NCBI GenBank assembly: GCA_001730085.1
Contig: MDLB01000108.1
Coordinates: forward strand, 1-64,000
From: PVC group bacterium (ex Bugula neritina AB1)
Lineage (GTDB): Bacteria; GCA-001730085
Direction: 5' to 3'
DNA length: 64,000 nt
Part shown: positions 6,596-55,864 of the stretch, piece after piece
Layout: each line of letters opens with the position of its first letter
How positions within the stretch are numbered: the first letter of the stretch is position 1
Program-made: the position numbers and the translations under genes
The notes under the pieces: model-generated
Database searches by the model: none
Seen by the model: the letters and a program-made list of their open reading frames with translations, nothing else
What the model was told of the DNA's origin: nothing

Positions 6596-6945
6596 TGTAA
6601 TGATAGATAAAGAAACCTCTCTATAGTATCGATAATCTCTTTAAAAGTTATGAGGTATTAAAGGCTAGAGGATTCTAATCTAATAAAGGAAAATTATAGG
6701 AAATAAAAGTTATAGATAAGGTGATTTTTAGGTGTTATAGGGATATAAAATAATAACGTAAATGATTTATTAAAACTAGATGGAGGCTAAATCGATCATT
6801 TTTTGCTGACTCAGTCTTTTGAGTGGCGAAAGTGTCACGAAATGAAATGTTTTAAGAGCGAGTCATGGCAGGCATTTCCATCTTTGCTTCGGTTCTATTT
6901 TTATCATTAAAATTATCTCTTGTATTTTTTAATATTGCTGGTATG

Positions 6946-33478: not shown

Positions 33479-33580
33479 TAATTGGTGATATTTTTGGCAT
33501 TGTATTAGTTTTATTTTTACAATTATTTTTTTTAAAATACTTGTATTTTTTTAATGGTAAAAGTCTTTGGAGGAAGATTC

Positions 33581-34774
33581 ATGGCTAAAGAAAAATTTGA
33601 GCGCAATAAACCACATGTTAATGTTGGAACAATAGGGCATGTGGATCATGGAAAAACAACACTAACGGCTGCTTTGACAACTGTTTTGGGTTCGCAGGGC
33701 TTAGCTGAGACGCGTTCATTTGACTCTATAGATAATGCTCCAGAAGAAAGAGAACGTGGTATAACGATTGCTACTGCTCACGTTGAATATGAGAGTGACT
33801 CTCGTCATTATGCTCACGTTGACTGTCCAGGGCACGCCGATTATGTGAAAAATATGATCACAGGGGCTGCTCAAATGGATGGAGCTATTCTTGTTGTTTC
33901 TGCTGCTGATGGTCCTATGCCTCAGACGAGAGAACATATCTTATTAGCTGGACAGGTTGGTGTTCCTTATATAGTTGTTTTTATGAATAAGGTTGACCAG
34001 GTTGATGATCCGGAACTTTTGGATTTGGTAGAATTAGAAATTAGAGAGCTTTTGAGTAAGTATAATTTCCCAGGTGATGATATTCCTGTTGTTCGTGGAA
34101 GTGCTTTGGGAGCTTTGAATGATCTTTCTAATCCTGAAGCAACAAAACCTATTACTGACTTAGTTGCAGCGATTGATGATTATGTGCCAACTCCAGTTAG
34201 AGATGTTGATAAGCCTTCTCTTGTTTCGATAGAGGATGTTTTCTCTATTAGTGGAAGAGGAACGGTTGCAACCGGACGTATTGAGCAGGGTATTGTTAAG
34301 GTTGGAGATTCGGTTGAGATCGTCGGTATTAGAGAAGAAATTCAAAAGACAACAGTTACTGGTGTTGAGATGTTTCGTAAAGAGATGGATCAAGGTGAGG
34401 CCGGTGATAATGTTGGATTGCTTTTAAGAGGTATAGAAAAAGATGATATTGAAAGAGGGCAGGTTATTGCTGCTCCTGGATCAATAACTCCTCATACTAA
34501 ATTTAAGGCAGAAGTTTATATATTGAAGAAAGAAGAAGGTGGAAGACATACTCCTTTTTTTAAAGGATATCGTCCTCAGTTTTATTTTAGAACCACGGAT
34601 ATTACTGGACAGGTTATTTTGCCAGAAGGTGTTGAAATGGTTATGCCTGGAGATAATATTAGTATCGAAGTTCATATTATTAATCCCGTAGCAATGGAAA
34701 AAGAATTACGCTTTGCTATTAGGGAAGGTGGAAGAACAGTTGGTGCTGGTGTTATTTCAGAAATTATCGAGTAG
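33581..34774 (+). CDS. tuf: Elongation factor Tu, copy 1
   Basis: Carries aminoacyl-tRNA to the ribosome. The ATG at 33581 ([20 protein letters not shown]) with a GGAGG ribosome site gives 397 residues; the nine codons open upstream are not coding. G motifs are [17 protein letters not shown] and NKVD, and the C-terminal beta-barrel domains are complete. It is nearly identical in protein to tuf copy 2 at 48991, with roughly a dozen substitutions mostly in the first 240 residues. Lies between tRNA-Thr and rpmG. Confidence 0.97.
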
Positions 34775-34970: not shown

Positions 34971-35044
34971 AGGCCTGTAGCTCCAATTGGCAGAGCAGCG
35001 GACTCCAAATCCGCGTGTTGGGGGTTCGAATCCCTCCAGGCCTG
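34971..35044 (+). tRNA. tRNA-Trp (anticodon CCA)
   Basis: Cloverleaf with acceptor AGGCCTG/CAGGCCT, D-arm GCTC/GAGC, anticodon stem GCGGA/TCCGC around CTCCAAA, and T-arm GGGGG TTCGAAT CCCTC. The discriminator is G, and CCA is not encoded. Position between rpmG and secE is conserved widely. Confidence 0.96.
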
Positions 35045-35086: not shown

Positions 35087-35266
35087 ATGAAATTAAAGGG
35101 ATTTCTAGGAGGAATTCAGTCAGAACTTAAGAATTCTACTTGGCCAACAAAGCAGGAAATTAAGGATTCTGCTTGGGCAGTTATAGTTAGTATGATTCTT
35201 TTGGGCGCTTTTGTAGGTGTTGTGGATTTTATTTTGTCTCGTGGGGTTGCATTGTTAATCCGTTAA
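35087..35266 (+). CDS. secE: Preprotein translocase subunit SecE
   Basis: Short gene found by direct translation: 59 residues, beginning MKLKGFLGGIQSELKN. The conserved STWPTKQEI motif precedes a single membrane segment (AVIVSMILLGAFVGVVDFIL). This is the single-span SecE seen in most bacteria, partner of SecY at 58943. It lies between tRNA-Trp and nusG. Confidence 0.95.
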   Translation: MKLKGFLGGIQSELKNSTWPTKQEIKDSAWAVIVSMILLGAFVGVVDFILSRGVALLIR

Positions 35267-35298: not shown

Positions 35299-35679
35299 AT
35301 GAGTAAATCTTGGTATGTTGTTCATACTCAAACAGGATTAGAGCAGAGAGTGAAGCATTATTTGTGGGAACGTGCTCGCTTGGCTGGTGATGAGACTATT
35401 TTTGAAAAAATTTTTGTTCCAACCGAAAATATATCCGAAGTTAAAGATGGGAAAAGAAAAGTTACTACTCGTAAATTTTTCCCTGGATATGTTTTGGTTT
35501 TAATGGAAATGAGTGATAAAAACTGGTTTATGGTTCGTCAGACACCGGGAGTTACTGGTTTTGTTAGTGCTTCTAAATATCCTGTTCGAGTTTCAGAAGA
35601 GGAAGTTTCTAGAATAATGCAGCAAACAGAAGAGACGAAAGATAAGCTTCAGCCAAAAGTTCTTTTTGAAAAAGATTAA
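35299..35679 (+). CDS. nusG: Transcription factor NusG, NGN domain only (ends at an in-frame TAA)
   Basis: NusG binds RNA polymerase through its NGN domain and links it to Rho or the ribosome through its KOW domain. The ATG at 35299 opens a full NGN domain: WYVVHTQTGLEQRV, the FPGYVLVLMEM motif and TPGVTGFV. After codon 126 (PKVLFEKD) an in-frame TAA at 35677-35679 stops translation where most NusG proteins continue straight into KOW. One base (GAA to TAA) would account for it. Neighbours secE and rplK are in the standard order. Sequencing error, a recent nonsense mutation or readthrough are all possible. Confidence 0.85.
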   Translation: MSKSWYVVHTQTGLEQRVKHYLWERARLAGDETIFEKIFVPTENISEVKDGKRKVTTRKFFPGYVLVLMEMSDKNWFMVRQTPGVTGFVSASKYPVRVSEEEVSRIMQQTEETKDKLQPKVLFEKD

Positions 35680-35829
35680 AAAGTTAAAATTGTTGAGGGC
35701 CCCTTTCTTAGTTTTTCAGGTGTTATTGAAGAAGTTCAGCCCGAAAAAGGCAAACTTAAGGTTATGGTATCGATTTTTGGTCGCTCAACACCTGTGGAAC
35801 TTGAATATTGGCAGGTAGAGAAAATATAG
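35680..35829 (+). pseudogene. nusG: NusG KOW domain, in frame after the TAA and without its own start
   Basis: The same frame continues for 49 sense codons to a TAG at 35827. It encodes a perfect KOW domain: [36 protein letters not shown] and the usual end QVEKI. There are no other disruptions. The only ATG (35764) is inside the domain, and no ribosome site precedes it, so independent translation is unlikely. rplK starts 10 bases later. Confidence 0.85.
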
Positions 35830-35839
35830 GAGACGATTC

Positions 35840-36268
35840 ATGGCCGATAAACCTGTAAAAGGATATATTAAGCTTCAGGTGCCTTCTGGACAGGCAAACC
35901 CAGCTCCTCCAGTTGGTCCAGCTCTTGGGCAGCATGGTGTTAACATTATGGAGTTTTGCAAAGCTTTTAATGACGCAACTAAAGATAATGCAGGGATGAT
36001 TGTTCCTGTTGTTATAACTGTTTATCAAGATAGAAGTTTTGATTTTGTTGTTAAATCGCCTCCTGCAGCTGTTTTGTTGAAAAAAGCTGTTGGTTTGGCA
36101 AAGGCGTCAGCTGTTCCTAACAGAGATAAAGTTGGAACAGTTACAAGGGCTCAGCTAGAGTCTATTGCCGAAACAAAAATGAAAGATTTGAATGTTCACA
36201 CGTTGGACCAAGCTGTTAAAGTTATTATGGGAACAGCAAGAAGCATGGGAATAGAGGTGGAATTGTGA
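35840..36268 (+). CDS. rplK: 50S ribosomal protein L11
   Basis: The 142 residues have the normal L11 length. The N-terminal motif [20 protein letters not shown] is unmistakable, and the C-terminal rRNA-binding domain ends in [13 protein letters not shown]11 shapes the GTPase-associated centre contacted by EF-Tu and EF-G. The ribosome site is AGGAGA. Its stop overlaps the rplA GTG by four bases. Confidence 0.97.
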
Positions 36269-36945
36269 AAAAAGTAAGTAAGCGCTTAAAGAAAGCAAGA
36301 GAAATGTATGATTCATCTGTTTCTTATAGTCTTCGTGATGCTGTGTCTTTGATCAAAAAACTGCCATTGGCATCTTTTGATGAGACCCTTGACTTGGCTT
36401 TTAAACTTGGTGTTGACGCAAGGCATGCTGATCAAGTTGTAAGAGGGGTTGTTGTTTTACCACATGGTTTAGGACGTTCACAGCGTGTTTTAGTTTTTGC
36501 CAAAGGTGAGAAGGCTCAGGAGGCTCAAAAGGCTGGTGCGGATTATGTCGGAGACCAAGACCTTATAGCTAAAATAGAGTCGGGCTGGTTGGACTTTGAT
36601 TCAGTTGTTGCTGTTCCAGAAATGATGAAAGATATAGCCAAAATAGGTCGTATCCTCGGAACTAAGGGTTTGATGCCTAATCCAAAGGTTGGAACTGTGA
36701 CTCAAAATATTGATCAGACAGTTAAAGAATTAAAGGCTGGTCGATTAAGCTTTAGGGTTAATAAGGCGAATGATATACATGTTCCTGTTGGGAAAGTTTC
36801 CTTTACGGAAGATTGTATTGTTGAGAATGTTGAGGCATTGATTGATGCGGTTGTTAAGGCTAAGCCTTCTGCTGCTAAAGGACAATATCTTCGAAAGATA
36901 AGTCTTTCTTCCACAATGGGTTGTGGTATTAAATTGAATATTTGA
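36265..36945 (+). CDS. rplA: 50S ribosomal protein L1
   Basis: The 226 residues start at a GTG overlapping rplK (GTGA). Family motifs include [28 protein letters not shown] and the C-terminal [11 protein letters not shown]1 forms the mobile L1 stalk near the E site, and in many bacteria it represses its own rplKA mRNA. No such leader site can be confirmed here. Confidence 0.97.
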
Positions 36946-36974
36946 CGGTATGTTTTTGTAAGGAGATGACGATC

Positions 36975-37502
36975 GTGCCAGGATTTGTCAACGACGAAAT
37001 AGTCAAGGTTTATCAGAAAAAACTAGAAGGGGCCACGGGTGTTGTTTTGACAGACCTTTGTGGTATGCCTGTTGCGACTAGTGATGAGGTTCGCTCTGGT
37101 TTTTTTAAAGCAGAAGGTTCTTTTTTTGTTGTTAAGAATCGGCTATTAAAAATTGTTTTAAAAAATAAGGGTTTTGAAGGTCTCGATGATGACTGTAAGG
37201 GAATGACGGGAGTTGTTGTTTTAAAGGATGAGCCTGTTGCCGTAGCTAAGGTGGTTCGAGACTTTGAAAAGAACATAGAGCAGTTTAAAATAAAAAAAGG
37301 ATATTTAGATGGAAGTCTACTTGATGCTTCAGACGTGAGGGAATTAGCGAAAATTCCTTCGAGAGAAGTATTACTTTCCAGACTTTTGATGTGTTTGAAT
37401 TCTCCCGTTTCGGGATTTGTAACTGTTTTGAGTGGCCTTTTAGGTAAAACAGTTAGAGTGTTTGATGCAATTAGAGAAGAAAAAGAAAAAAATGCGGAAT
37501 AG
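36975..37502 (+). CDS. rplJ: 50S ribosomal protein L10
   Basis: I start at the GTG at 36975 (MPGFVNDEIVKVYQKKL). TAAGGAG lies nine bases before it, and that same site is too close to the ATG at 36966. The 175 residues contain FFVVKNRLLKIVL and GMTGVVV, typical of L10, and a C-terminal L7/L12-binding helix. L10 anchors L7/L12 dimers at the stalk base. Confidence 0.95.
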   Translation: MPGFVNDEIVKVYQKKLEGATGVVLTDLCGMPVATSDEVRSGFFKAEGSFFVVKNRLLKIVLKNKGFEGLDDDCKGMTGVVVLKDEPVAVAKVVRDFEKNIEQFKIKKGYLDGSLLDASDVRELAKIPSREVLLSRLLMCLNSPVSGFVTVLSGLLGKTVRVFDAIREEKEKNAE

Positions 37503-48990: not shown

Positions 48991-50184
48991 GTGGCAAAAG
49001 AAAAATTTGAACGTACTAAACCTCATGTGAATGTTGGGACTATAGGTCACGTTGATCACGGCAAGACAACTTTGACAGCAGCTTTAACAACTGTTTTAGG
49101 CAAAGAAGGTCTAGCGGAAACACGTTCCTTTGACTCTATAGATAATGCCCCAGAAGAACGAGAAAGAGGTATAACGATTGCTACAGCTCATGTTGAGTAT
49201 GAAAGTTCCAATCGACATTATGCCCATGTAGACTGCCCAGGTCACGCTGATTATGTTAAAAATATGATCACAGGTGCAGCTCAGATGGATGGAGCGATTT
49301 TGGTTGTTTCAGCGGCTGACGGCCCAATGCCTCAAACAAGAGAGCATATATTATTGGCTGGACAGGTCGGTGTTCCTTATATCGTCGTTTTTATGAATAA
49401 AGTAGATCAAGTTGACGATCCTGAACTATTGGACTTGGTTGAGTTAGAAATTAGAGAACTTTTGAGTAAATATAATTTTCCTGGAGATGACATTCCTGTT
49501 GTTCGTGGAAGTGCTTTAGGAGCTTTAAATAATTTGACAGATGCTGAAGCTACTAAGCCTATTTTAGAGTTGGTTGCAGCTATTGATGAATATGTTCCAA
49601 CACCAGTTAGAGATATTGATAAACCTTCTCTTGTTTCAATAGAAGATGTTTTCTCTATAAGTGGTAGAGGAACTGTTGCTACTGGTCGTATTGAACAAGG
49701 TGTTGTGAAAGTCGGTGACAGTGTTGAAATTGTTGGAATTAAAGAAGAAATTCAAAAAACAACAGTTACAGGTGTTGAGATGTTTCGCAAGGAAATGGAC
49801 CAGGGAGAAGCAGGTGATAATGTAGGCCTACTGCTAAGAGGTATTGAGAAGGATGATATCGAAAGAGGACAGGTTATTGCTGCTCCTGGATCAATAACGC
49901 CTCATACCAAGTTTAAGGCAGAAGTTTATATTTTGAAAAAAGAAGAAGGTGGAAGACATACGCCTTTCTTTAAAGGGTATCGCCCACAGTTTTATTTTAG
50001 AACGACAGATATTACTGGACAGGTTATTTTGCCAGAAGGTGTTGAAATGGTTATGCCTGGGGATAATATAAGTATTGAAGTTCATATTATAAATCCCGTA
50101 GCGATGGAAAAAGAATTGCGCTTTGCTATTCGTGAAGGTGGACGAACAGTTGGGGCAGGGGTTATTTCGGAGATAATTGAGTAA
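48991..50184 (+). CDS. tuf: Elongation factor Tu, copy 2
   Basis: The 397 residues start at GTG with AAAGGAG upstream. The protein is nearly identical to copy 1 (33581): substitutions cluster at KEG/SQG near 45, SSN/SDS near 78 and around 185-205. The last 150 or so residues are identical. Synonymous sites differ in many places, so the copies are not a recent duplication. Its TAA shares one base with the rpsJ ATG. Confidence 0.97.
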
Positions 50185-50489
50185 TGGCTGATAAAATTCG
50201 TATTCGCTTAAAAGGTTTTGATCATAAGTTGTTGGATCAATCTACTTCTGAAATTGTTGAGAGGGTTAAGACGAGTGGAGCAAAAATACTTGGCCCAGTT
50301 CCTCTTCCTGTGAAAAGGGAAAGATATTGTGTTTTAAGATCGCCTCACGTCCATAAAAAATCTCGTGAGATTTTTGAATTGAGGACGTACAAAAGATTAC
50401 TTGATATTATAGCTCCAACATCTAAAACGATGGACTCTTTGATGAAATTAGATCTACCTGCTGGGGTAGATATTGAGATAAAAGTTTAA
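50184..50489 (+). CDS. rpsJ: 30S ribosomal protein S10
   Basis: The 101 residues contain [27 protein letters not shown] and the conserved [20 protein letters not shown]10 also pairs with NusB in antitermination, and NusG-KOW/S10 contact links transcription to translation. That is relevant because nusG in this window is interrupted. First gene of the S10 operon, overlapping tuf2 by one base. Confidence 0.97.
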
Positions 50490-55537: not shown

Positions 55538-55864
55538 ATGTCTGCTAAAACAAAAATGCGTATAAAAAAAAATGACAAGGTGATTGTTGTTACTGGTAAG
55601 GATAAAGGCAAAGTTGCGGAAGTTACAAAAGTTATCCCGCAAAAGAATAGAGTTATAGTTGCCGGTATCAATATGGTCTCTAAGCACCAACGTCCGAATG
55701 CTCAAAATCAAAAAGGTTCGATTATTCGAAAAGAGGCTTCTCTAGATTATTCCAACGTTATGATTTACTCTGAAAAAGAGAGTAAAGGAGTTCGCTTGGG
55801 GATAAAGGAGAAAAAGGACAAAAAAGTTGTGCGAGTATGTCGCAAAACAGGTGAAGAATTTTAA
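55538..55864 (+). CDS. rplX: 50S ribosomal protein L24
   Basis: The 108 residues include the KOW motif KNDKVIVVTGKDKGKVAEV and the NMVSKHQRP segment. The start may be ATG 55538 or the in-frame ATG six codons later (MRIKKNDKV), which fits the family better. L24 starts 50S assembly. Confidence 0.95.
   Translation: MSAKTKMRIKKNDKVIVVTGKDKGKVAEVTKVIPQKNRVIVAGINMVSKHQRPNAQNQKGSIIRKEASLDYSNVMIYSEKESKGVRLGIKEKKDKKVVRVCRKTGEEF

Follow-up and report, generated by a model that had tools for sequence, protein, structure and literature searches.

The DNA analyzed here, referred to as the window, comprises the first 64 kb (64,000 nucleotides) of an 89 kb contig from the draft genome of PVC group bacterium (ex Bugula neritina AB1), an assembly of 1.91 Mb in 108 contigs that is 97.6% complete. 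Its forward strand carries a gene cluster in the usual order tuf, tRNA-Trp, secE, nusG, rplK, rplA, rplJ, and rplL. Profile searches recovered an intact tuf gene for EF-Tu (33554-34774) and intact rplK, rplA, and rplJ genes (35840-37502), while secE (35087-35266) matches TIGR00964 with 51.4 bits and a tRNA search located tRNA-Trp(CCA) at 34971-35044. The secE-nusG-rplK-rplA neighborhood expected of NusG is present, and every neighboring gene tested is intact. Beyond rplL, two long open reading frames (ORFs) of 1249 and 1343 amino acids occupy the places of rpoB and rpoC, and they are assigned to these genes by position. Both partners of the NusG KOW domain, Rho and S10, are retained in this genome. 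An intact rpsJ gene for S10, the ribosomal partner, was found by profile search on the forward strand at 50184-50489, and an intact rho gene resides on another contig (C92). The window also holds a second intact tuf gene (48991-50184), and a 773-base stretch common to the two copies has 86% DNA identity.

The nusG ORF starts with ATG at 35299, ends with TAG at 35827-35829, and is interrupted by an in-frame TAA at codon 127 (35677-35679). The portion upstream (codons 1-126 plus the TAA; 35299-35679, forward strand) encodes the NGN domain and linker, and scores 98-99.8 bits against PF02357. This 126-amino-acid product, as written, reaches 123.4 bits against TIGR00922, which is below the curated cut-off of 135.7 bits for that family. 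When codon 127 is instead treated as a residue, the match spans positions 1-172 of 172 and rises to 211.7 bits, exceeding the cut-off. Following the TAA, 49 sense codons continue in the same frame to the terminal sequence QVEKI and the usual stop (35680-35829, forward strand), and these supply the undamaged remainder of the KOW domain, as judged from KOW profile matches and from sequence constraint. These codons alone score 78 bits against TIGR00922 positions 124-172 (E 7.4e-22), and therefore the KOW coding capacity after the stop is not due to chance.

These results confirm two statements of a first-pass annotation of this DNA, namely that codon 127 of nusG is an in-frame TAA and that the 49 in-frame codons from there to QVEKI encode a KOW domain. 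The same annotation placed the stop exactly between the NGN and KOW domains, and this needs to be corrected. In the read-through protein, the Pfam NGN domain covers residues 3-107 and the Pfam KOW domain begins at residue 125, so the stop sits within the first residues of KOW. The gene at 35299-35829 is a housekeeping nusG. It resembles other members of its family (TIGR00922; PF02357 plus PF00467) in read-through length, in the presence of both domains, in operon context, and in conserved KOW residues including IFGR, but differs from them by the single in-frame TAA at codon 127 of the assembled sequence. The NusG paralogs RfaH, LoaP, and UpxY share the two-domain layout, but the scores obtained here are far below the cut-offs of their profiles.

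To place codon 127 in context, 86 related nusG genes were aligned. A scan using one genome per species yielded 80 loci, nearly all titled Omnitrophota, with identities to this nusG of up to 60%. Codon 127 encodes Glu in 83 and Asp in 3 of the 86 relatives, which agrees with the earlier proposal that a single base change from GAA explains the stop. None of the 86 genes has an internal stop anywhere in the aligned sequence, and so the search for the same TAA in related genomes that the first-pass annotation had recommended was negative in this set. The only other genome of this phylum in the comparison has an intact nusG that is 51% identical. Among 146 genomes of a different phylum, 133 carry nusG above the cut-off, and no internal stop is seen among the matches listed; three further phyla were very small and supplied no base rate. 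In-frame nusG stops are thus rare and, so far as sampled, are not a lineage trait. We also found no precedent in the literature for natural truncations of nusG.

Among the 86 relatives, 21 KOW columns show a conservation of at least 95%, and this gene retains 20 of them. The one exception is N138, which is replaced by S, as it is in one relative. The earlier description of these codons as free of any other defect is therefore essentially right. The codon directly before the stop (35674-35676) specifies D126, a position held by Gly in 81 and by Asp in 2 of the 86 relatives, and this residue probably represents natural variation. The NGN half is more divergent than average, with a mean identity to the relatives of 48% versus 59% among the relatives themselves, and the corresponding values for the KOW half are 72% versus 75%. 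In a regression of KOW identity on NGN identity, the KOW half shows a residual of +0.063 (sd 0.030), which places it above the NGN-based prediction. Because KOW is, if anything, better conserved than NGN predicts, this domain was under full selection until very recently, and too little time has passed for the downstream half to decay.

A second source of NusG or of a KOW domain was sought in the ~1.84 Mb of readable sequence from the same genome (107 of 108 contigs; 1.90 Mb including 66 kb of N, nearly all of which is in contig C105, whose 64.9 kb fall outside this search). Within this sequence, there is no second NGN domain and no second match to the whole NusG protein. Only two KOW matches are present, one in nusG itself (35680-35763) and one at 55568-55660 that corresponds by position to ribosomal protein L24. 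The readable genome therefore has no spare NusG-type KOW domain and no RfaH-like paralog, and the second full-length NusG or RfaH gene that the first-pass annotation had suggested looking for is not found there. Compensation by such a gene or by a separate KOW protein is accordingly rejected for this portion of the genome. The same-phylum genome compared above carries a second, divergent NusG-like gene (C130:16246-16650; 27% identity), which this genome seemingly lacks.

We also searched the genome for other genes split in the same manner, using a dicodon coding score that detects same-frame coding directly after a stop and before any start codon. When virtual stops were introduced into genes of this genome, the scan recovered 31% of them, and so a few split genes may be missed. 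The scan returned 55 candidates, with nusG ranked second, and among the 14 top candidates that were inspected nusG is the only recognizable and otherwise intact gene. The top candidate (C106: 12407) lies in a decayed-looking region, and another (C64: 13442) appears by eye to represent neighboring genes in one frame, yebC-like and then ruvC-like. The remaining inspected candidates are antisense or noncoding frames, or again neighboring genes in one frame. Finding one split gene at ~31% detection agrees with a small number of random base errors in each draft genome. Given that 5% of substitutions create stops, 1-3 nonsense changes per genome would imply roughly 20-60 substitution errors across 1.9 Mb, which we consider plausible for a metagenome bin of draft quality.

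The assembly also contains two families of contigs (C17, C18, C56, and C60; C30, C67, C85, and C86) that are 83-92% alike and carry long tRNA arrays, and C86 encodes two nad proton-pump subunits, nad1, and cytochrome b. Judging from this gene content, these contigs apparently derive from the mitochondria of several related protists or algae and were binned with the bacterium. The presence of such contigs indicates that the genome is most probably a metagenome bin, in which one would expect consensus errors at single bases or a mixture of strains.

Several explanations for the stop can be weighed against these data. The open and conserved frame that continues directly past the TAA might suggest that full-length NusG is supplied by readthrough, either through leaky termination or through a suppressor tRNA. 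However, ARAGORN identified 90 tRNA genes and one tmRNA in the ~1.84 Mb of readable sequence, and none of these tRNAs has a UUA anticodon. TAA is also the main terminator, ending 327 of the 643 ORFs of at least 300 codons, and TAA-A, the context of the nusG stop, is the commonest context at true stops (163/327). With two intact release-factor genes present as well, recoding of TAA or its suppression by a tRNA encoded in the readable sequence is rejected, and structure-driven readthrough is likewise rejected because the RNA downstream of the stop is less folded than shuffled sequences (z +1.0). The stop is also shared by none of the 86 relatives, nusG is intact in the same-phylum genome, and we consider readthrough extremely unlikely. 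Equally improbable is a stable, selected split that yields NGN and KOW as separate polypeptides or has NGN by itself as the adaptive form, even though the stop is near a domain border. There is no in-frame ATG, GTG, or TTG between the stop and codon 156, which lies in mid-KOW and is thus too late to launch a KOW domain, and so reinitiation yielding free KOW is rejected. Moreover, an NGN-only product would free KOW to decay, which has not occurred, and no relative has such an arrangement.

Another possibility is a genuine and very recent stop, present in the sampled strain or in part of its population, whose cells would make NGN only. In this case, NGN would still bind and act on RNA polymerase, but the KOW contacts to S10 and Rho would be lost, as is implied by published work on NusG (PMC7819879). 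This would be an ordinary loss of function, probably deleterious and transient, and the NGN-only NusG with lost coupling that the first-pass annotation described would follow only from a real base. In its favor, some bacteria (B. subtilis) can do without nusG, and the contacts made by NGN are enough to affect RNA synthesis (PMC7819879). Furthermore, no other clear in-frame stop is found in the readable genome, which gives no obvious sign of a high error rate, and the scarcity of other broken genes indicates that the assembly is good overall. In contrast, nusG is single copy and universally kept, Rho and S10 are intact, and a deleterious allele is unlikely to become the consensus. We therefore view a real, recent stop as possible but rather unlikely. 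It is very unlikely that a population lives with an NGN-only protein as its single NusG and yet retains Rho and S10, a state in which the KOW functions would be naturally uncoupled.

The explanation we favor is that the TAA is probably the wrong base for most or all cells, arising either as a base-call or consensus error or through the fixation of a minority allele during assembly. The gene would then be an ordinary nusG in its usual operon place, with one isolated substitution converting a near-invariant acidic codon into TAA, and living cells would make a normal two-domain NusG. The artefactual nature of the base is inferred because a single base change suffices, because KOW shows undiminished constraint, and because there is no second NusG, spare KOW, suppressor tRNA, or unusual use of TAA in the readable part of a genome that keeps Rho and S10. 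The rarity of in-frame nusG stops and a fragmented assembly with apparent organelle DNA of other organisms argue in the same direction. An isolated change without decay of the downstream frame, as expected of a sequence or consensus error, is what we observe. However, a real and very recent mutation leaves an identical trace. Thus, of the three origins put forward by the first-pass annotation, the very recent change and the sequence error are both supported by the predominance of Glu and the undecayed KOW domain, whereas readthrough finds no backing. The data support no new mechanism, recoding, split-gene system, or adaptation.

The programmed frameshift of prfB offers a comparison, since there too a conserved gene has a premature in-frame stop and intact sequence after it. 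In prfB, the frame changes at the early stop and the signal is widely conserved (PMC12421855). In nusG, the frame does not change and the stop is shared with none of its relatives. Should the base be both real and fixed, this cell would naturally lack a NusG KOW domain while still having Rho, and would test the dispensability of NusG coupling outside Bacillus-like bacteria. As it stands, the locus mainly shows that what looks like a striking gene split can come from one base in a draft genome binned from a metagenome, and that copy number, tRNAs, relatives, and constraint can be used to narrow the explanations even before reads are consulted. The survey of stop codons additionally encountered an open frame of ~9,673 codons on the minus strand of C104, with its stop near 6712, which represents a gene for a giant protein.
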